DNA of 64,000 nt. Origin: Halobacillus massiliensis (GTDB taxonomy: Bacteria; Bacillota; Bacilli; Bacillales; Halobacillaceae). Both the position numbers and the translations under genes were made by a program. Below, in pieces: positions 3,035-11,814 of this stretch. How positions within the stretch are numbered: the stretch's first letter is position 1; each line of letters begins with the position of its first letter. The stretch spans positions 248,001 through 312,000 of the forward strand of contig NZ_LT800499.1 of the NCBI RefSeq assembly GCF_900166625.1, read 5' to 3'. The notes beneath the pieces were generated by a model. It made no database searches and was not told the DNA's origin. It saw only the letters and a program-made list of their open reading frames with translations.

Positions 3035-3397
3035 GTGTTCACCATTCTTCCAAGCCGGGATACGTCCACGGTGGCTGTGGAAATTGAAGGAAAAGCAACA
3101 GGTGAGGATGCCAGGAAACTTAACGAGCATATCGAGAAACACTTTGGTGAAGAGAAAAAATTTAACGTCCTTGCAGTTATTCATGAGCTGGAAGGAACGA
3201 CAGCAAAAGGAATAATGGACGGGATAAAGGTGGATGCCAAAAGGTGGGACCAGTTTAATAAATTCGCCGTCCTTAGTGATAAAAAGTCGATTAACGTGTC
3301 TGCAAAGGCAGGCAGCTACCTGCCTGGAGTGAAAGCAAAAGACTTTGATAAAGATGAGATAGAAAGCGCTTGGAATTGGATTCAGGAAAAAAATTAA
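3035..3397 (+). CDS. SpoIIAA-like (STAS-fold) protein
   Basis: A 120-residue protein starting at GTG 3035, with GGAGG 9 bases upstream. The pattern of alternating strands and helices, with VAVEIEGKATGEDARKL near the N-terminus, VLAVIHELEG in the middle and FAVLSDKK later, fits the SpoIIAA-like family of STAS/CRAL-TRIO-like domains. Such proteins occur in many non-sporulation contexts and their ligand is unknown. It stands alone. The hairpin at 3418 lies just downstream, shared with the convergent YqjF gene. Confidence 0.75.
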   Translation: MFTILPSRDTSTVAVEIEGKATGEDARKLNEHIEKHFGEEKKFNVLAVIHELEGTTAKGIMDGIKVDAKRWDQFNKFAVLSDKKSINVSAKAGSYLPGVKAKDFDKDEIESAWNWIQEKN

Positions 3398-3417
3398 ATG
3401 TCTTTTCGATTCTCGAC

Positions 3418-3454
3418 AGTAAAGGAGCCTCCTGGAAAGGAAGGCTCCTTTACT
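3418..3454. terminator. hairpin between convergent genes
   Basis: AGTAAAGGAGCC (3418-3429) pairs perfectly with GGCTCCTTTACT (3443-3454). There is no strong T-run on either side, so termination is inferred mainly from its position between two converging genes. Confidence 0.6.
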
Positions 3455-4190
3455 ATGATTTCTGCAGCGGCCAAAACACCACTCTTCTGGATTCTGCATA
3501 ATGAAAAAGCATTTGCCCTCCCGACAAGGAAGAAGGAGACACAGGAAGCAGGTTATGAGTTTCAAAATGACCCTCTGCATCTTGAAGACTCCAAGGAAGA
3601 TGATGCACACCTACTGTATATATTTCATTTCGAATCGGTGTAAACAAATAGTAGCGTTCCACCAGCCAGCTTGCGAGACTGCCTTTTTCAGGATAATATG
3701 CCTCTGCACCAATCTGCCAGCTTCCTTCCAGGAAAGCTCCTGACTTTCCTCTGCGCCTGCTGTAATAATGGAAGCTGTCTTCGTTACGATGCATTCTCAT
3801 ATCAGCATAGTAATAAGGGAGGGTGGTCATTCGCGCACCAAGTACGTCCAATAATTTTTCAGCATCAAGGCTGAAGAAATAGATGCCGGGAAGACCGTTG
3901 CGCTTTACATATGTACGGACATTCAGCTCTAAAAAATGATGAAGGTAAGGGATTTTGGGGGTCAGGCGAAAATGCATGCCGCTTACAAGAAACGGCAGGA
4001 CGGTAATCCATGCCTTTCCGTTATATGTATCCAATTCGAGGCCTTCTGGTAATAGAGGAGTAAGGGCCTCATTTTTAACAGAATGATGCATAAATAATGT
4101 ATGATCCCATCTTTGTGAAAAAATCCACGGTCCTTTAGGAAGAGGAGAATCACGATGCTCTGTTGTTGACAGGATTTCTTTATATCTCAT
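3453..4190 (-). CDS. YqjF family protein (DUF2071)
   Basis: A 245-residue protein of the YqjF/DUF2071 family. The N-terminus has the family pattern of a Trp-rich opening, then LLPEGLELDTYNGKAWITVLPF, followed by LNVRTYVKRNGLPGIYFFSLDA. The function is unknown; the fold is related to acetoacetate decarboxylase-like proteins in my recollection. ATG 4190 is preceded by AGGAGAG at 7-base spacing. It is separated from the upstream CBS gene by that gene's terminator, so it is likely its own transcription unit. Confidence 0.85.
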   Translation of the reverse strand: MRYKEILSTTEHRDSPLPKGPWIFSQRWDHTLFMHHSVKNEALTPLLPEGLELDTYNGKAWITVLPFLVSGMHFRLTPKIPYLHHFLELNVRTYVKRNGLPGIYFFSLDAEKLLDVLGARMTTLPYYYADMRMHRNEDSFHYYSRRRGKSGAFLEGSWQIGAEAYYPEKGSLASWLVERYYLFTPIRNEIYTVGVHHLPWSLQDAEGHFETHNLLPVSPSSLSGGQMLFHYAESRRVVFWPLQKS

Positions 4191-4212
4191 TTATGTTCTC
4201 TCCTAAAACAAG

Positions 4213-4256
4213 CAGGTACGGCCGGGAGAGGGGGAGGTTCAACCTGGCCGTACCTG
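4213..4256 (-). terminator. rho-independent terminator after the CBS gene
   Basis: CAGGTACGGCC and GGCCGTACCTG form an 11-bp perfect stem. On the minus strand it is followed by GCTTGTTTT, a moderate T-rich tail. Confidence 0.8.
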
Positions 4257-4288: not shown

Positions 4289-4711
4289 TTAATTATTCCC
4301 TTTTCCTTTAGAAACTTCACTTACGATATCAGCTGCTACTTCATTAGCACCTTCAATGCCGATATCTCCAAGGCTTACAACCCCTTGAATAGAATCATTC
4401 TCAATGACAAGCAGACGCTTGATCTGATGATCCTGCATAAGTCTTGCTGCTTCTTGAACATCCATATCAGGATATCCTGTCACTACATTCTCTGTCATAA
4501 CATCGGATGCTTTAATATTATCAGGAGAACCTTTTGCGAGTCCTTTAACGACAATGTCGCGATCAGTGACTACACCGACGTATCTGTCATTCTCAACGAG
4601 CGGAATGAAACCAACATCTTGTTCTTTCATGTGTTTCGCTAAAGTCTGTAAATCATCGGACGCATTGCAAGAGGCTAGATTACTTGTCATATAGTCTTTT
4701 ACGACACTCAT
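4289..4711 (-). CDS. tandem CBS-domain protein
   Basis: A 140-residue protein made only of two CBS motifs (about residues 8-60 and 70-125), with VVTDRDIVVKGLA and VVSLGDIGI as the typical second-strand segments. Two CBS motifs form one Bateman module that binds adenine nucleotides or other ligands. Stand-alone proteins of this type are common in bacilli (YhcV-like) and are often stress-induced, though I see no convincing SigB promoter here. ATG 4711 has AAAGGTGG 9 bases upstream. The partner is unknown. Confidence 0.85.
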   Translation of the reverse strand: MSVVKDYMTSNLASCNASDDLQTLAKHMKEQDVGFIPLVENDRYVGVVTDRDIVVKGLAKGSPDNIKASDVMTENVVTGYPDMDVQEAARLMQDHQIKRLLVIENDSIQGVVSLGDIGIEGANEVAADIVSEVSKGKGNN

Positions 4712-4941
4712 TAGTTATCCACCTTTCAAATATTGATGTTATTTTGATATATATTTCTGTTTCCGTATTCCAGAAAATTTAAACATAAAAAATTCGACAA
4801 ATGTTGATAACACAGGGGTTTAGTGAGCGGTGGAAGAAACATTTTAGTTTAGTGATATAAAAAGTATGGGAAGGGTTTCATGGTAAAAAAGACAGTATGA
4901 TAAAATATAATGAAACCGCTGCCATAAAGGAGCTGAGTCTT

Positions 4942-6300
4942 ATGCTGTCGATAATTAATAAATATAAAGATGGAATTTTTGAAACACTGTTTGAAAATGT
5001 GAATCAATGTATCGTGATCGTTGATAAAAAAGGCTATATTACTTATATGAATGAAGGCTATTGTGAGTTTTTACAAGTAGATAAAGCAGAAGTTAAAGGG
5101 AAACACGTCACGGAAGTGATTCATAATACTAGAATGCATATTGTCGTTGAAACCGGAAAAGAAGAAATGGCGGACATTCAGTACATCCGCGGCAATTATA
5201 TGATTGCCAACCGTGTACCGCTGCGCTCTGAAGGTGAAATTGTCGGTGCCCTTGGGATGGTTTTATTTCGTGATACAGAGGAATGGCTGAAGATGAACAG
5301 CCATATTAAAACACTCCTCCTGGAACTTGAAAATTACCGTAATCAAATGAATAAACAGAACGGTACAAGCTACTCACTTCACGACATTATAACGGCTTCC
5401 CCTAAAATACAGGAAGTTAAGGACAAAGTGAAAAAGCTGGCAGCCGGGGAGGTTTCTGTACTGTTAAGGGGAGAAAGCGGGACAGGTAAGGAGCTTTTTG
5501 CCCACAGTATTCATCAGCTAAGTGAACGCCATATGAAACCTTTTGTAAAGGTGAACTGTGCGGCTATACCGGAAAATTTATTCGAGTCCGAGCTCTTTGG
5601 TTACCAGGAAGGGGCTTTTACCGGAGCTAAAAAAGGCGGCAAGCCGGGGAAATTCCAGCTTGCCGATGGAGGTACTATTTTTCTAGATGAAATCGGTGAC
5701 ATGCCATTACATGCCCAGGTGAAAATTTTAAGAGTGCTGCAGGAGGGTGAGGTTGAAGCGATCGGTGCTGTAAAACCGAAGAAAATCGATGTGAGGGTGG
5801 TGGCGGCAACCAATCAGTCGCTCGAAGATTTAATCGAGAAGCAGGAATTCCGAAAGGACTTATTTTACCGAATAAATGCCATGCAGGTGTTTATCCCTCC
5901 ATTAAGGGAACGTTCAGAGGATTTGCGGGTGCTATCCAAATACCTGTTACAGAAGCTGACCGATCGAATCGGGAAACGGGTCACTGACTTTTCAGCAGAA
6001 GTTTACAGCTGTTTTCAACGCTATAACTGGCCGGGAAATGTAAGGGAGCTTGAGAATGTAATAGAGTCAGCAGTTTATTTAACGAATGATGAAACGATCC
6101 AGCTTGGCGACTTGCCTGATCATATGCAAAGAGAATTCCAGCCGGCCCCGAAAACTTTAAAGGGGATTCTCGAAGATACAGAAAAGAAGGCACTGGAACA
6201 GGCTTTAAAAAGGTTCAAGAATGACAAAGCGGCTGCCGCTAAATCGCTGGGAATCGGAAAAACCAGCTTTTATGACAAACTGAAAAAATACAGGCTGTGA
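4942..6300 (+). CDS. sigma-54-dependent PAS/AAA+/Fis-type activator
   Basis: A 452-residue enhancer-binding activator. Residues about 13-115 form a PAS sensor. The AAA+ domain has Walker A GESGTGKE (177-184), the sigma-54-contacting GAFTGA loop (224-229) and Walker B GTIFLDEIGD (244-253). The C-terminal Fis-type helix-turn-helix ends in KAAAAKSLGIGKTSFYDKL. ATG 4942 is preferred because AAAGGAG lies 8 bases upstream; an in-frame ATG at 4897 has no clear site. It is immediately upstream of an operon with a sigma-54 promoter and three matching inverted repeats, so it very likely activates 3-hydroxybutyrate use. The PAS ligand is unknown. There is no response-regulator receiver domain, so control is probably by direct ligand sensing. 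Confidence 0.93.
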   Translation: MLSIINKYKDGIFETLFENVNQCIVIVDKKGYITYMNEGYCEFLQVDKAEVKGKHVTEVIHNTRMHIVVETGKEEMADIQYIRGNYMIANRVPLRSEGEIVGALGMVLFRDTEEWLKMNSHIKTLLLELENYRNQMNKQNGTSYSLHDIITASPKIQEVKDKVKKLAAGEVSVLLRGESGTGKELFAHSIHQLSERHMKPFVKVNCAAIPENLFESELFGYQEGAFTGAKKGGKPGKFQLADGGTIFLDEIGDMPLHAQVKILRVLQEGEVEAIGAVKPKKIDVRVVAATNQSLEDLIEKQEFRKDLFYRINAMQVFIPPLRERSEDLRVLSKYLLQKLTDRIGKRVTDFSAEVYSCFQRYNWPGNVRELENVIESAVYLTNDETIQLGDLPDHMQREFQPAPKTLKGILEDTEKKALEQALKRFKNDKAAAAKSLGIGKTSFYDKLKKYRL

Positions 6301-6301
6301 G

Positions 6302-6351
6302 TCATTCCGTGAATCCGGAAGTTTATTCCGGGTAAGCGGAATGATTTTTTT
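6302..6351 (+). terminator. terminator of the activator gene, overlapping two activator-site candidates
   Basis: TCATTCCG (6302-6309) pairs with CGGAATGA (6337-6344), followed by seven T. The two arms are also parts of the inverted repeats at 6305-6320 and 6326-6341, so one stretch seems to serve both as terminator and as protein-binding DNA. Confidence 0.75.
6305..6341. promoter_or_regulatory. two upstream activator sites (TTCCG-N6-CGGAA)
   Basis: Two 16-bp inverted repeats of exactly TTCCG-N6-CGGAA lie at 6305-6320 and 6326-6341. Their starts are 21 bp apart, two helical turns, so both would face the same side of the DNA. They sit about 165 bp before the expected transcription start, a normal place for sigma-54 enhancer sites. 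Binding by the upstream activator is inferred. Confidence 0.7.
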
Positions 6352-6404
6352 ATGCCTTCAATGTAAGGGTTTTCATGAATGTAGTAAATGAACATAATAA
6401 CCAA

Positions 6405-6420
6405 TTCCGGATTTCCGGAA
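6405..6420. promoter_or_regulatory. third upstream activator site (TTCCG-N6-CGGAA)
   Basis: TTCCG-GATTTC-CGGAA, the same 16-bp pattern as the two sites upstream and embedded in the 20-bp palindrome AATTCCGG-N4-CCGGAATT. It is centred about 76 bp before the expected start. Confidence 0.7.
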
Positions 6421-6461
6421 TTAAATGATGACGAACCCTGGCGAATCCTTAGTTTAATTGT

Positions 6462-6477
6462 TGGCACGAATCTTGCA
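6462..6477 (+). promoter_or_regulatory. sigma-54 (-24/-12) promoter
   Basis: TGGCACG-AATC-TTGCA matches the sigma-54 consensus TGGCACG-N4-TTGCW at every position. The GG (6463-6464) and GC (6475-6476) have the required spacing. The expected start is near 6488, 19 bases before scoA. Confidence 0.93.
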
Positions 6478-6506
6478 TATAAAAGGGTGAAGGGAGTGTT
6501 AGGAAG

Positions 6507-7199
6507 ATGAAAACGATATATTCATCATTTGAACAAGCTGTTAAAGAAATAAAAGACGGATCAACGATTATGGTTGGTGGCTTCGGACTTGTAGGAATAC
6601 CGGAGAACCTGATTCTTGCATTAGTAGATTCAAAAGTGAAGCACCTGACCGTTATCTCTAACAACTGCGGGGTAGACGACTGGGGTCTTGGACTGCTTCT
6701 TAAAAATAAGCAGATTGATAAAATGGTAGGATCCTATGTTGGAGAAAATAAAGAGTTCGAACGTCAGGTTCTTTCAGGGGAGCTTGAAGTCGAGCTGACG
6801 CCTCAGGGCACCCTTGCGGAAAGAATACGTGCCGGCGGAGCAGGAATCCCGGCCTTTTATACACCAGCAGGGGTAGGAACGCCAATCGCAGAAAACGGTG
6901 AAGTCAGAAACTTTGATGGAAAAGACTATCTTCTTCAAACCGGCCTTCGCGCAGATTTCAGCCTTGTGCGTGCGGTTAAAGGAGATAGACAGGGGAACCT
7001 TGTCTACAACAAAACGGCCCGTAATTTCAACCCGATGATGGCGGCTGCGGGCAAAGTAACAATAGCTGAAGTTGAGGAGCTTGTGGAAACAGGAGAGCTT
7101 TTTGCAGATGAAATCCATACTCCCGGTATTTATGTTCAAGGACTGATTGAAGGAGAACAGGAAAAGCGGATTGAACGACTGACGCTTGCTCAAGCATAA
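6507..7199 (+). CDS. scoA: 3-oxoacid CoA-transferase, subunit A
   Basis: The 230-residue alpha subunit of a family I CoA-transferase, which moves CoA from succinyl-CoA (or another acyl-CoA) to acetoacetate. Family features are the opening [22 protein letters not shown] and the later [12 protein letters not shown] segment. It is the first gene behind the sigma-54 promoter, with a RBS of the AGGGAG/TAGGAAG type. The partner subunit follows 18 bases downstream. Whether the donor is succinyl-CoA or acetyl-CoA cannot be decided from sequence; the dehydrogenase and thiolase next to it favour ketone-body degradation. Confidence 0.92.
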
Positions 7200-7217
7200 C
7201 TATAGGAGGGGAAAATA

Positions 7218-7883
7218 ATGAAATTAGATAGAGCTAAAGTGAGGGAGCAGATTGCCCGTCGAGCTGAACAGGAAATTGAAAGCGGTTACTATGTGAACCT
7301 GGGCATTGGTATGCCGACAATGGTTGCGAATTATATTCAGGGTGATAAAGAAGTTGTCCTGCAGTCAGAAAATGGCCTGCTCGGGATTGGACGGTCTCCT
7401 TATGAAGAAGAGGTTGATCCTGATTTAATCAACGCCGGAAAAGAAACCGTAACAGAAGCGATAGGAGCGTCCTATTGTGACAGTGCAGAATCTTTTGCCA
7501 TGATCCGCGGAGAACACCTCGACCTGGCCATACTCGGAGGAATGGAAGTTTCTGAAACAGGAGATCTTGCCAACTGGATGATTCCCGGAAAAATGATTAA
7601 AGGCATGGGTGGAGCAATGGATATCGTTCACGGAGCGAAAAAGATTGTTATCATCATGGATCATGTCAATAAACACGGGGAGCCGAAGATTTTAAAGGCC
7701 TGCAGCCTGCCGTTAACCGGTCAAGGAGTAGTAGACCGTATTATTACCGATCGGGCAGTGATTGATGTCACGTCAGAAGGCCTAGAATTGATCGAAGTGC
7801 TCAATGGTTTTTCAATAGAAGGAGTAAAAGCTTCGACTGAAGCTGAATTGCACGTCAGCGAAAAGTTACTGACTAATAATTAG
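7218..7883 (+). CDS. scoB: 3-oxoacid CoA-transferase, subunit B
   Basis: The 221-residue beta subunit. The catalytic glutamate is expected to be Glu51 in SENGLLGIG, the conserved motif that forms the glutamyl-CoA thioester. Glycine-rich NLGIGMPT precedes it, as in the family. The RBS is AGGAGG, 18 bases separate it from scoA and 12 from the dehydrogenase gene, so it is clearly one operon. Confidence 0.93.
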   Translation: MKLDRAKVREQIARRAEQEIESGYYVNLGIGMPTMVANYIQGDKEVVLQSENGLLGIGRSPYEEEVDPDLINAGKETVTEAIGASYCDSAESFAMIRGEHLDLAILGGMEVSETGDLANWMIPGKMIKGMGGAMDIVHGAKKIVIIMDHVNKHGEPKILKACSLPLTGQGVVDRIITDRAVIDVTSEGLELIEVLNGFSIEGVKASTEAELHVSEKLLTNN

Positions 7884-7895
7884 GAGGTTTTACAG

Positions 7896-8666
7896 ATGAG
7901 TCAAGTTGTTTTTATTACAGGTGCTGCCAGCGGAATTGGTTATCAAATTGGTACGGCTTTTGCAAAGGAAGGAGCAAAGGTGGTTCTTAGCGATGTAAAT
8001 GAAGAGAAAGTCAAAGAGGCAGCCGAAACTCTAAAGAAAAAAGGCTGTGAATGTATCGGTCTTAAGTGTGATGTCACAAAGGAAGAAGAGCTGAAGAATT
8101 GCATTGATGAAACGATCACAACTTATGGACGTCTTGACGTGTTAATTAACAATGCCGGCCTGCAGCATGTCGCTTCAATTGAAGAGTTTCCTACCGAGAA
8201 GTTCCGTTTTATTACAGATGTGATGCTGGTCGCCCCATTTATGGCGATAAAGCACGCTTTTCCAATTATGAAGAAGCAGGGATTTGGGCGGATTATTAAT
8301 ATGGCATCTATTAACGGGTTAATTGGTTTTGCCGGGAAGGCAGCCTATAACAGTTCCAAGCATGGTGTAATCGGCTTAACAAAAGTGGCAGCGTTGGAAG
8401 GAGCCGAACATGGGGTTACGGTTAATGCGATCTGCCCTGGCTATGTCGACACACCATTAGTTAGAAACCAGTTGGAAGATTTAGCGTCCAACCGCGGGGT
8501 TTCCCTTGAAAAAGTTTTAGAAGAGGTTATTTATCCGCTAGTTCCTCAGAAACGGCTGCTTTCTGTTGAGGAAATTGCCGACTATACGATGTTTTTAGCA
8601 AGTGAAAAAGCAAGAGGTGTTACAGGCCAGGCAGTCGTTCTAGATGGCGGTTATACAGCCCAATAA
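7896..8666 (+). CDS. 3-hydroxybutyrate dehydrogenase (SDR family)
   Basis: A 256-residue classical short-chain dehydrogenase. It shows the NAD-binding motif TGAASGIG (8-14), NNAG (85-88), catalytic Ser138, and YNSSK with Tyr151 and Lys155. QHVASIEEFPTEKF after NNAG and the C-terminal VLDGGYTAQ are typical of D-3-hydroxybutyrate dehydrogenases. It oxidises 3-hydroxybutyrate to acetoacetate, the substrate of the adjacent CoA-transferase. The start has a TAGGAGG site. The context agrees with the B. subtilis yxjC-scoA-scoB-yxjF operon, though the gene order differs. Confidence 0.9.
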   Translation: MSQVVFITGAASGIGYQIGTAFAKEGAKVVLSDVNEEKVKEAAETLKKKGCECIGLKCDVTKEEELKNCIDETITTYGRLDVLINNAGLQHVASIEEFPTEKFRFITDVMLVAPFMAIKHAFPIMKKQGFGRIINMASINGLIGFAGKAAYNSSKHGVIGLTKVAALEGAEHGVTVNAICPGYVDTPLVRNQLEDLASNRGVSLEKVLEEVIYPLVPQKRLLSVEEIADYTMFLASEKARGVTGQAVVLDGGYTAQ

Positions 8667-8682
8667 TAAAGGAGGATGTTCA

Positions 8683-9861
8683 ATGAGAGAAGTATATATT
8701 TTAGAAGGCGCCCGCACCCCGTTTGGCAGTTTTGGAGGCAAGTTAAAAGATTTAGATCCAACGACGCTTGGGGTGACGGCAAGTAAAGAAGCCATCAGAA
8801 GAAGCGGAATTTCTCCTGAGCAGATAGACTTTTCTGTAATTGGAAATGTGATTCACTCCGCTAAGAATGCTCCCTATCTTTCAAGGCATATTGCCTTAAA
8901 CACCGGAGTCCCTCAAAGCAGCCCGGCGCTTACAGTTAACCGGCTGTGCGGGTCAGGCCTCCAGGCTGTTGTTTCAGCTGCCCAGTCGATTCAATTAGGC
9001 GAAGGTGAAGCGGCATTAGCCGGAGGGGTGGAAAACATGAGCCTTTCACCTTATGCCCTAAGAGGGAGCCGTTTTGGAACAAAACTTGGCACACCGAAGA
9101 TGGACGATATGCTGTGGGCGGCCTTAACCGATGAATACATAGGCTGCGGAATGGGGGTAACAGCGGAAAACCTTGCAGAGAAATACGAAATCAGCCGTGA
9201 AGAACAGGATGCCTATGCCGCTATAAGCCATAAGCGGGCGGCAGCGGCAAGAAGAGAAGGAAGGCTGGCTGAGGAAATTACAGCCGTAGAAATCAAAAGC
9301 CGTAAAGGGACATTGGAAGTAACGGAAGATGAGCATATCCGTGAAGATACAACGCCAGAAGGGCTTTCGGCTTTAAAGCCTGCTTTTAAAAAGGACGGCA
9401 GTGTAACCGGAGGAAACGCGAGTGGAATTAACGACGGAGCTGGTGCAGTCGTTGCAGCAAGTGAAGATTTTGTCAGAGCTAATAACAGCACCCCGATCGC
9501 GAGAATCATTTCCTGGGGAGTAGCAGGGGTAGATCCAGCTTATATGGGCATCGGACCAGTCTCCGCCATTAAGAAAGCTTTACAGTCAGCAGCTCTTACG
9601 CTTGAGGATATGGATTTAATTGAAGTAAACGAAGCGTTTGCTTCCCAGTACTTAGCCGTAGAAAAAGAGCTGGGGCTTGATCGTGAGAAAGTGAACGTTA
9701 ACGGCGGAGCAGTCGCACTCGGACACCCGATTGGTGCAAGCGGTACACGAGTATTGTATTCATTAATTAAAGAGCTGAAACGCCGTAACAATAAATATGG
9801 TGCAGCTTCGCTTTGTATTGGCGGCGGACAGGGAATCGCCATGATCGTTGAAGCTTTATAA
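8683..9861 (+). CDS. acetyl-CoA C-acetyltransferase (thiolase)
   Basis: A 392-residue thiolase. Cys89 in NRLCGSGLQA is the acyl-accepting cysteine; the His of GHPIG and the second Cys of LCIGGGQG near the C-terminus complete the active site. It would split acetoacetyl-CoA, made by ScoAB, into two acetyl-CoA. ATG 8683 is chosen because GGAGG lies 7 bases before it; the frame extends into the end of the dehydrogenase gene but without a RBS. Confidence 0.93.
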   Translation: MREVYILEGARTPFGSFGGKLKDLDPTTLGVTASKEAIRRSGISPEQIDFSVIGNVIHSAKNAPYLSRHIALNTGVPQSSPALTVNRLCGSGLQAVVSAAQSIQLGEGEAALAGGVENMSLSPYALRGSRFGTKLGTPKMDDMLWAALTDEYIGCGMGVTAENLAEKYEISREEQDAYAAISHKRAAAARREGRLAEEITAVEIKSRKGTLEVTEDEHIREDTTPEGLSALKPAFKKDGSVTGGNASGINDGAGAVVAASEDFVRANNSTPIARIISWGVAGVDPAYMGIGPVSAIKKALQSAALTLEDMDLIEVNEAFASQYLAVEKELGLDREKVNVNGGAVALGHPIGASGTRVLYSLIKELKRRNNKYGAASLCIGGGQGIAMIVEAL

Positions 9862-9882: not shown

Positions 9883-11166
9883 ATGCTTGGCATATTACTA
9901 GGACTTGTTGTCTTAATGGCTCTGGCTTATTTAGGATGGTCGATCATCTGGGTCGCACCGATTGCAGCCGGAGTTGTTGCGGTAACCGGGGGACTCGATC
10001 TTCTCGATGCCTATAAAAATACGTACATGGAAGGATTCGTCGGCTTTGCGAAAGACTGGTTTCCAGTCTTTATGCTCGGTGCCATCTTCGGAAAACTCAT
10101 GGAGGATACGGGCATGGCCCGAACGGTTGCTGTTGCTTTAACTAAGCTGGTCGGTACGAAACGGGCGATTTTAGGAGTACTCGTTTCAGCTGCGGTTTTA
10201 ACATACGGGGGAGTAAGTTTATTCGTTGTCGTATTCGCCGTATATCCTTTAGCATTATCACTTTTTAGAGAAGCCAATATCAGCCGCCGGTTAATCCCGG
10301 CGACTGTAGCACTGGGCGCCTTTACATTCACAATGACGGCTATTCCAGGGACACCACAGATTCAAAACCTGATCCCGATGGAATACTTCAAAACAGACGC
10401 CGCAGCAGCGCCTGTGATGGGAATTATTGCTGCTATTATCATGGCAGGAGGGGGCTATTTTTATCTCCGCTGGCGTGAGAAGCAGCTCACAGCAAAAGGA
10501 GAAAATTTCACCGAACCGAAGGATAATAAGATTACGAAAGAAAACGGGAAAGCTCCTAACTTTATTTTATCCTTACTGCCGCTGCTCACCGTTTTGATTA
10601 CGCTCAACCTGTTGAAGTGGGATATTGTTACAGCATTAATTTCAGGAATTGTACTCATTATGCTTCTTAACGTACAACAGTTCAAAGGGTTTACAAAATC
10701 CCTTAACAGTGGAGCAGGAGGATCAGTTATTGCGATTATTAATACAAGTGCAGCGGTTGGTTTTGGAACAGTCGTAAAAGCGGTGCCCGGTTTTGAACGC
10801 CTGACCGAGGTGTTAATGGGGATTAAGGGAAATCCGCTTATCTCAGAAGCTGTGGCCGTAAACGTGCTTGCTGGGGCGACAGGCTCTGCATCAGGCGGTA
10901 TGGGGATTGCCCTTGAGGCGCTTGGATCGAAATACTATGAAATTGCCATGAACAGTGGAATAAGTCCAGAGGCTTTCCATAGAGTAGCCTCATTATCTTC
11001 AGGAGGACTCGATGCCCTGCCTCATAATGGAGCTGTTTTAACGCTCCTTACGATTACAGGCATGTCACATAAAGACAGCTATAAGGATATCTTCGTTGTC
11101 GCTGTCTTAATTCCAGTAATTTCTGTTGCCGTTGTAATCTTACTTTCTTCTATTGGTATTTTATAA
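9883..11166 (+). CDS. GntP-family permease, probably 3-hydroxybutyrate or related acid uptake
   Basis: A 427-residue integral membrane protein with about 12 hydrophobic segments, belonging to the GntP/gluconate-H+ symporter family (motifs GGVSLFVVVFAVYPLALSLFREANISRRL and GATGSASGGMGIALEALG). Its place as the last gene of the ketone-body operon suggests uptake of 3-hydroxybutyrate or acetoacetate instead of gluconate, as inferred for B. subtilis YxjC. The RBS is a run of five G. No terminator directly follows; structured repeats begin 20 bases downstream. Confidence 0.85.
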   Translation: MLGILLGLVVLMALAYLGWSIIWVAPIAAGVVAVTGGLDLLDAYKNTYMEGFVGFAKDWFPVFMLGAIFGKLMEDTGMARTVAVALTKLVGTKRAILGVLVSAAVLTYGGVSLFVVVFAVYPLALSLFREANISRRLIPATVALGAFTFTMTAIPGTPQIQNLIPMEYFKTDAAAAPVMGIIAAIIMAGGGYFYLRWREKQLTAKGENFTEPKDNKITKENGKAPNFILSLLPLLTVLITLNLLKWDIVTALISGIVLIMLLNVQQFKGFTKSLNSGAGGSVIAIINTSAAVGFGTVVKAVPGFERLTEVLMGIKGNPLISEAVAVNVLAGATGSASGGMGIALEALGSKYYEIAMNSGISPEAFHRVASLSSGGLDALPHNGAVLTLLTITGMSHKDSYKDIFVVAVLIPVISVAVVILLSSIGIL

Positions 11167-11187: not shown

Positions 11188-11382
11188 TGATAGAAAGCTG
11201 GAGGGAATTCCCTTGTTCCGTTTCCCTTGATAAAGAGGGGCGGGCCAGGGGAAATAACTCGCTTTCCATGGGCGAACGGTAAGCTTCCTCGGGCTTTGCC
11301 CTCCGGGATCTCACCTTGTTCTATCCTCCCATAGGAAGTCTCGCCGTTTCCTCCGGCACTTTATGATTATTAAAGTAAAGAA
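11188..11382 (-). repeat. intergenic repeat, B copy
   Basis: A B-type copy reading on minus, nearly identical to the next one at 11407. It contains the TTCCGTTT segment, the invariant loop sequences and a decayed far end. Confidence 0.8.
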
Positions 11383-11406: not shown

Positions 11407-11814
11407 CCGATAGAAAGTTGGAGGGAATTCCCTTGTTCCGTTTCCCTTGATAAAGAGAATCGGACCTGGGGAAAGACTCGCTTTCCATGGGCGAACGGTG
11501 AGCTTCCTCGGGCTTTTAGCCCTCCGGGATCTCACCCTATTCTATCCTCCCATAGGAGTCTTGCCGTTTCCCTGGTCCTTTATGTTTTTTGGAGTAACGG
11601 AACGTTAACGTAAAAGGAGTAAGGTAGAGAATGTTCCTCCAACCTTTGGGTTCCGTTTACACCATCAACGTTAAATAGGCTGGGAAATGGTGAGACTCCT
11701 GCAGGGAGATAGAGCCATGGTGAGATCCGCGAGTGTAACGAGCTAGCTCACCGGCTCCCCGCGGAAAGGGGAGCTATTTATCAGCCGCTTTTCTACGTAC
11801 TTGATAAACGGAAC
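11407..11814. repeat. composite intergenic repeat, unit II (B copy minus, A copy plus)
   Basis: The B copy (11407-11602, minus) and A copy (11650-11814, plus) flank a 47-base spacer, the same order as unit III at 52184 and the inverse of unit I at 2454. The A copy has ends GTTCCGTTTA and TAAACGGAAC. An open frame on the minus strand of the B copy is not a gene. Together with the copy at 11188 this fills most of the 870-base gap between the permease and ilvE. Confidence 0.85.

Follow-up and report, generated by a model that had tools for sequence, protein, structure and literature searches.

Within the 64-kb window (the whole stretch of DNA that was analysed), the gene for a predicted sigma-54 activator, whose stop codon ends at position 6300, is followed on the same strand by scoA-scoB-bdh-thiolase-permease genes that, judged by their gene families, probably form an operon for the uptake and use of 3-hydroxybutyrate and acetoacetate. 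The intergenic region between activator and operon holds three 16-bp dyads, a T-tract, a cre-like element and a -24/-12 promoter (Table 1). The thiolase gene may actually start further downstream than position 8644, and the GntP-type permease is a candidate importer, by its presumed substrate, of hydroxybutyrate or ketobutyrate. No Rfam family reaches its gathering score in window positions 4700-7300. On the 3' side of the permease gene, GAGGGAATTCCCTTGTTCCGTTTC occurs twice, at 11201-11224 and 11421-11444, 220 bp apart.

Table 1. Genes and predicted regulatory features between the activator and the end of the operon (window coordinates)
Feature	Position	Strand	Evidence
Activator gene, PAS - AAA+ (Sigma54_activat) - Fis-type HTH bEBP, 467 aa	4897..6300	+	Pfam
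Predicted intrinsic terminator of activator gene: sites 1 and 2 plus flanks as stem, then seven T	6302..6351	+	Fold, covariation
Predicted enhancer site 1, 16-bp dyad TTCCGTGAATCCGGAA	6305..6320	.	Exact TTCCG-N6-CGGAA
Predicted enhancer site 2, 16-bp dyad TTCCGGGTAAGCGGAA	6326..6341	.	Exact TTCCG-N6-CGGAA; 21 bp from site 1, start to start
T-tract of seven T	6345-6351	+	Sequence
cre-like element ATGTAAGGGTTTTCAT	6361..6376	.	15/16 to cre consensus WTGWAARCGYTWWCAW; centre GG instead of CG
Predicted enhancer site 3, 16-bp dyad TTCCGGATTTCCGGAA, promoter-phased	6405..6420	.	Exact TTCCG-N6-CGGAA
Sigma-54 -24/-12 promoter TTGGCACgaatcTTGCAT	6461..6478	+	TGGCA-N6-TTGC; consensus
scoA-like 3-oxoacid CoA-transferase subunit A	6507..7199	+	TIGR02429, 258.6 bits (cut-off 128.5)
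scoB-like 3-oxoacid CoA-transferase subunit B	7218..7883	+	TIGR02428, 316.4 bits (cut-off 243.55)
3-hydroxybutyrate dehydrogenase (bdh)	7896..8666	+	TIGR01963, 370.9 bits (cut-off 307.05)
Acetyl-CoA C-acyltransferase (thiolase)	8644..9861	+	TIGR01930, 470.5 bits (cut-off 240.55)
GntP-type permease	9883..11166	+	PF02447, 51.8 bits (cut-off 22.5)

The activator is a bEBP by its domains: the translation matches PF00158 (E 1.5e-70, 236.7 bits), PAS_9, HTH_8 and the AAA lid in Pfam, a GAFTGA loop can be read in its Sigma54_activat domain, and a Fis-type HTH lies at residues 425-465 (PF02954, 42.5 bits). It fell short of the models for three named members of the class. The AtoC model (NCBIfam NF008469) gave 313.2 bits against a cut-off of 714, and the Pfam matches include PAS and no receiver domain; the NorR model (NF003451) gave 316.6 bits against 476; and the PrdR model (NF041552), which carries an N-terminal CBS part, gave 425.3 bits against 795 in a match that begins at model position 135.

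An earlier note on this DNA had described three TTCCG-N6-CGGAA dyads ahead of a -24/-12 promoter, a 21-bp interval between the first two dyads and seven T after a hairpin, and all of these are present where it placed them. The exact motif occurs three times in the window, always in this intergenic region, and six times in the 4.31-Mb genome (three of them here) compared with four matches to a reversed control pattern; the degenerate TTCCRN6YGGAA occurs 39 times compared with 15 for its reversed control. The three dyads thus exceed chance occurrence. The exact form put forward in that note holds for this genome but not for its relatives, where loci with a site pair have a family motif of TTCC-R-N6-Y-GGAA with an A/T-rich centre, and the G/C form is, on the sequences compared, a peculiarity of this genome. 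Its further proposal, that the 16-bp motif is the operator of this activator family, was borne out to the extent that the motif does precede the orthologous ketone-body operons in which the note had suggested looking for it, although it needs widening to TTCCR-N6-YGGAA. Among the other 36 degenerate sites of the genome, 14 were inspected and none had a -24/-12-like promoter within ~400 bp, which makes a local regulator more likely than one with a wider regulon and disfavours the latter in this genome.

Relatives were surveyed at two levels. Within the family, a search for the activator at E <= 1e-150 matched 37 of 44 genomes and left seven without a match, one of which (G018) was missed because its activator gene is split; there the ortholog lies in two overlapping frames (L235), and the sites and sigma-54 promoter before the operon are kept, with site 1 degraded. 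Across the order, 177 of 397 genomes had a match at E <= 1e-130. Beyond the family, one or a few loci per family were chosen from the matches listed for the 397 genomes, so closer orthologs are over-represented. Eleven duplicates, L101 (from the genome of L209) and L106-L108 (from the genomes of L190-L192) were dropped, leaving 98 loci. The 44 groups used in the comparisons are genera, except that one named contig, and the second copies present in two genera, are treated as groups of their own. The pair of sites 1 and 2 lies behind the orthologous activator in 82 of the 98 loci, from 24 families plus a Virgibacillus contig, with start-to-start spacings of 20 bp (55 loci), 21 bp (20), 22 bp (5) and 19 bp (2). 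Site 3, with at least 7 of 8 arm letters, is found in 78 of the 82 loci with a pair, and a strict TGGCA-N6-TTGC promoter likewise in 78 of 82, the other four having a looser pattern of little weight. The downstream operons vary in content and order (scoAB-bdh-thl-permease, scoAB-permease-bdh, bdh-permease or permease-bdh). Sixteen loci lack the pair. One site is left in each of two loci: site 2 in L209, where it can form a hairpin before a T-tract by itself (judged by eye on the twin locus L101), and a site close to the stop codon in L151; in L162, L168, L190, L191 and L192 there is no pair behind the activator and the operon is located elsewhere; and in the remaining nine (L155, L163, L186-L189, L021, L022 and L026) the pair is absent or the locus distant.

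Two features of these loci point to an enhancer. Of 75 loci, 71 have site 3 at 48-51, 59-63 or 71-74 bp from the GG of the -24 element and four have it at 91, 93, 140 and 150 bp, and over 56 distances, each counted once per group, the phase concentration R was 0.81 at 11.2 bp, the best of periods 9-13 (0.69 at 10.5), a value reached by none of 2000 jittered sets. Phasing between sites 2 and 3 is weaker (R 0.55). The array also stays with the operon when the activator does not: in two genomes of the window's genus (G004 and G005) the activator gene lies elsewhere and in a third (G006) it lies ~5 kb upstream, and in all three the operon retains the site array and promoter, with some sites one or two arm letters off. 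In G110 and G338, operons apart from the activator keep paired sites without a T-tract, and in G110 all six of the N6 positions still pair. The G338 locus (L233) has an unrelated 298-aa frame at 3347-4246, with three sites directly after its stop, ~24 kb from the activator. The spacing and phasing support the prediction that the sites form an enhancer array of a bEBP.

The RNA of positions 6298-6354 folds at -29.7 kcal/mol compared with -10.25 (sd 2.56) for 200 shuffles (z -7.6), and positions 6302-6351 have the make-up of an intrinsic terminator, a stable GC-containing stem directly before a T-tract. The earlier note had already read sites 1 and 2 as a terminator stem followed by a T-tract, which stands, but it had paired only one arm of each site, whereas most of both sites pair. 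An alignment of 34 sequences, one from every group whose pair is spaced at 20 bp (ten of the 44 groups fall outside it), gave a covariation score for the cross-site stem of 0.321 against 0.147 (sd 0.013) in shuffles, none of 500 of which reached it. Paired cells amounted to 82.5% compared with 71.3% in shuffles, and cells with both sides changed to 95 compared with 45.5. On four of five measures (score, paired cells, doubly changed cells and pair types) the true register exceeded all slid ones; the fifth, the number of cross-site pairs with both-sided change, showed no excess (13 compared with 12.3 in shuffles and 13 at slide -1). The dyads within the sites showed no covariation (0.156 against 0.146, sd 0.014, in shuffles). 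As a reading in which the sites answer to protein only predicts covariation within each dyad, its absence suggests that the sites carry two codes. The same is apparent at the outermost pair, between position 0 of site 1 and position 15 of site 2, which can form in 42 of the 44 group representatives (24.4, sd 2.1, in shuffles), and in several families where a site 1 beginning GTCC is matched by a site 2 ending GGAC, and ATCC by GGAT, though the dyad is thereby broken. Four loci (L160, L161, L167 and L170) have a site 2 that is perfectly reverse-complementary to site 1, even across the N6.

The surroundings of the stem point the same way. A T-tract, taken as at least five T of eight, lies behind site 2 in 74 of the 82 pair-bearing loci; of the 18 loci where an A-tract would fit before site 1, 4 have one. 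Four further pairs in the flanks outside the sites, counted without the ten loci that have fewer than 4 bases before site 1, averaged 3.44 of 4 where there is a T-tract (n=66) and 1.50 of 4 where there is none (n=6; p 8e-5, uncorrected for relatedness), as expected of a terminator, with the caveat that the T's of the T-tract can themselves be the pairing partners. Six of the eight pairs without a T-tract belong to groups f8 and f13, suggesting that the terminator role depends on lineage. The presence of a T-tract made only a weak difference to pairing within N6 (3.78 of 6 with it, 2.80 of 6 where it is missing, p 0.05; p 0.12 at group level). An RNA-strand asymmetry test, comparing G-U wobbles with A-C mismatches across the stem, gave no clear preference for G-U: within N6, A-C was the more depleted (13.0 against 24.7 in shuffles, compared with 20.0 against 24.2 for G-U), and at positions other than N6 the two were not clearly different. 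Relatedness is corrected only in part in these p values and shuffles. RNA polymerase outruns ribosomes in B. subtilis and other species, according to the available text of PMC13323073, from which we infer that a hairpin so near the stop codon could form. Overall, the comparison supports the view that sites 1 and 2 also form the terminator of the activator gene in most relatives, and these alignments lend good support to a predicted sigma-54 enhancer array that overlaps this terminator.

We therefore consider it probable that the region is a dual-use element, whose DNA dyads constitute the predicted enhancer array of a bEBP and whose RNA, over sites 1 and 2, constitutes the terminator of the activator gene, as suggested by the observed conservation of anatomy, the covariation of the stem, the helical phasing and the linkage of the sites to the operon. 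Under this mechanism the bEBP made from the gene directly upstream would contact the three dyads through its Fis-type HTH, and three dimers would presumably assemble an AAA+ hexamer, which would open sigma-54 RNA polymerase at the promoter in response to a putative ketone-body-type signal at the PAS domain. Once transcribed, the promoter-distal sites 1 and 2 would become the terminator of the activator's own transcript and, if termination is as efficient as we infer, would shield the operon from polymerase leaving the activator gene at no cost in additional DNA. Such a locus would offer a well-documented natural case of one sequence that has to satisfy two demands which can be told apart, a protein's need for DNA dyads and a terminator's need for an RNA stem, and in which this double constraint is visible as covariation across sites and not within them.

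The complementarity of sites 1 and 2 could instead have arisen wholly at the DNA level, with an inverted pair of asymmetric dyads seating two bEBP dimers symmetrically, the hairpin a by-product and the terminator an accident. Adjacent palindromes always yield complementary arms, GabR of B. thuringiensis binds a region with a 21-bp inverted repeat and a 5-bp gap (PMC4279683), and in G110 the N6 stays fully complementary although no T-tract follows, so that some of the symmetry may reflect a need of the DNA. Yet flank bases beyond the 16-bp sites pair above chance solely in loci with a T-tract (whose T's may be partners), the T-tract after site 2 is the rule and the A-tract before site 1 is not, and the within-site dyads do not covary, all of which leaves an exclusively DNA-level cause unlikely. 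In view of the ten pairs without a T-tract, the weak N6 difference, the wobbles and GabR, a DNA-level need for symmetry may nonetheless contribute beside the RNA cause. The opposite extreme, that the repeats are a terminator with chance palindromes and the enhancer lies elsewhere, draws on the strong hairpin and T-tract, but we regard it as extremely unlikely given that site 3, with the same motif and in phase with the promoter, is no part of the hairpin, that operons apart from the activator retain the sites, and that the 8 of 82 pairs without a T-tract still keep them.

Both roles might also be physically coupled. A bEBP seated on sites 1 and 2 could act on polymerase elongating through the end of its own gene, as a roadblock or by altering the folding of the hairpin and hence termination, and thereby decide where its own transcript ends and how much polymerase reads through into the operon; activator level, mRNA 3' end and basal operon read-through would then follow enhancer occupancy. 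Conservation of the overlap, and a site 1 that starts no more than 6 bases after the stop codon in 69 of the 82 loci, fit this coupling, but the comparison does not separate coupling from sequence economy, and no conserved site lies upstream of the activator gene. We consider such action on the elongating polymerase, and a switch built on it, quite unlikely; sequence economy is the simpler explanation. Finally, the sites could belong to another dyad-binding regulator and not to the neighbouring bEBP, an alternative that appears very unlikely. The assignment to the bEBP was made by sequence comparison, the sites of G338 follow an unrelated frame, and two orthologs with 56-60% identity (L163 and L021) precede permease-bdh genes without a pair as defined. 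These exceptions aside, however, the pair goes with orthologs of at least 53% identity before such operons; it was found neither behind the distant homologs L155, L187-L189, L022 and L026 (39-52%) nor, for perfect-arm sites sought within 600 bp of the gene, at Pseudomonas loci (37-38%).

The lack of a conserved upstream site also means that classical autoregulation is not indicated. A match at 4761, upstream of the activator, has 7 of 8 arm letters; matches of at least 7/8 within 250 bp upstream of the gene occur in 12 of 108 loci (10 distinct genomes, two of them counted twice) at scattered positions, and with the 4761 match not conserved we rejected autoregulation at the activator's own promoter. 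On the minus strand, a divergent gene for a CBS-pair protein (window 4289-4711) adjoins the activator; the idea that it serves the activator as the other half of a split sensor was likewise rejected, since among 108 loci only the window's own showed a homolog in that position, in a sample where most loci cover ~1.5 kb upstream.

The earlier note did not list the cre-like element, which in this genome has every other consensus position of a CcpA cre box but GG at its centre, where the strongly conserved central CG of B. subtilis cre boxes is reported in the available text of PMC3463425. Matches of at least 14/16 lie close behind site 2 in 44 of 82 loci (13 of 44 groups), 41 of the 44 at 32-36 bp from the start of site 2, with centres of GG in 30, CC in 9, CG in 3 and others in 2. 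The element may add catabolite control between sites 2 and 3; with GG replacing the conserved CG, control by CcpA is a guess.

Several known systems resemble parts of this arrangement. E. coli AtoC is a response regulator, and AtoC and atoDAEB stand for sigma-54 control of acetoacetate catabolism, a likeness to the window's operon from which the present activator departs in having no receiver domain. Acetoacetate catabolism is also named as a sigma-54 function in the consulted portion of PMC4428206. HbcR of Pseudomonas is a sigma-54 bEBP of (R)-3-hydroxybutyrate catabolism, activated by R-3-hydroxybutyrate (PMC10482368, available text), and the genes neighbouring the window's activator fit such a role. 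Pseudomonas homologs with 37-38% identity lie upstream of permease and bdh genes (L046, L048, L050 and L055) and are presumably HbcR, but no TTCC-N8-GGAA site with perfect arms lies within 600 bp of those genes. Three norVW enhancer sites scaffold a higher oligomer of NorR, most likely a hexamer (PMC2941729), a precedent that three sites, three dimers and a hexamer here would fit; NorR differs in having a GAF domain, and the accessible text of that paper mentions no terminator role. GabR, which acts at gabT, is a PAS-AAA+-HTH bEBP whose inverted-repeat binding region, like the array here, lies near a -24/-12 promoter, but its repeats are 21 bp long and 5 bp apart, and the main text of PMC4279683 does not mention a terminator. 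Sigma-54 control has been predicted for 3-oxoacid CoA-transferase genes as a class in Bacilli and Clostridia (PMC12316311), where the available text describes neither an activator nor an enhancer motif or an overlap with a terminator; the motif, its phasing and its overlap with the terminator are new beyond that text. In the literature searched, to which most subscription journals did not belong, we found no study of this activator or its motif, nor of any bEBP enhancer that lies within an activator's terminator. The three phased copies of TTCCR-N6-YGGAA would supply a predicted operator for a widespread bEBP.

The design may recur at other co-directional pairs of a bEBP and its target. In the same genome, directly after the stop codon of a bEBP that we call AcoR-like (L016; the label is a guess, as no NCBIfam match shown reached its cut-off), there are TGAGACA repeats and their inverse. 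Across the loci compared (L238-L245 and L246-L258), those of G000, G009 and G010 have, by eye, a TGAGACA hairpin and T-tract, with a cre-like element and a -24/-12 promoter beyond them; other relatives often retain the repeats, whose first TGAGACA copy in some genomes includes the stop codon's TGA, with a weaker hairpin or a missing T-tract, and some have neither. This locus resembles the present one in its repeats after the stop, hairpin, cre-like element and promoter and differs in its motif and in its sites being putative; we regard it as a possible second enhancer-terminator overlap, a lead and not a result.

Two further bEBP loci were noted along the way. A PrdR-like bEBP in the window's own genome, G000 (L009, contig C2, ~3564054-3567557), scored 474.5 bits, below the cut-off of 795; its frame stops before the HTH, an HTH-like coding stretch seems by eye to run on in another frame, and the gene looks frameshifted, through decay or sequencing error. 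In that genome too, at ~316.1 kb (L011), a bEBP gene has a divergent -24/-12-like element upstream, and the frame directly downstream of it reads, by eye, like RpoN.
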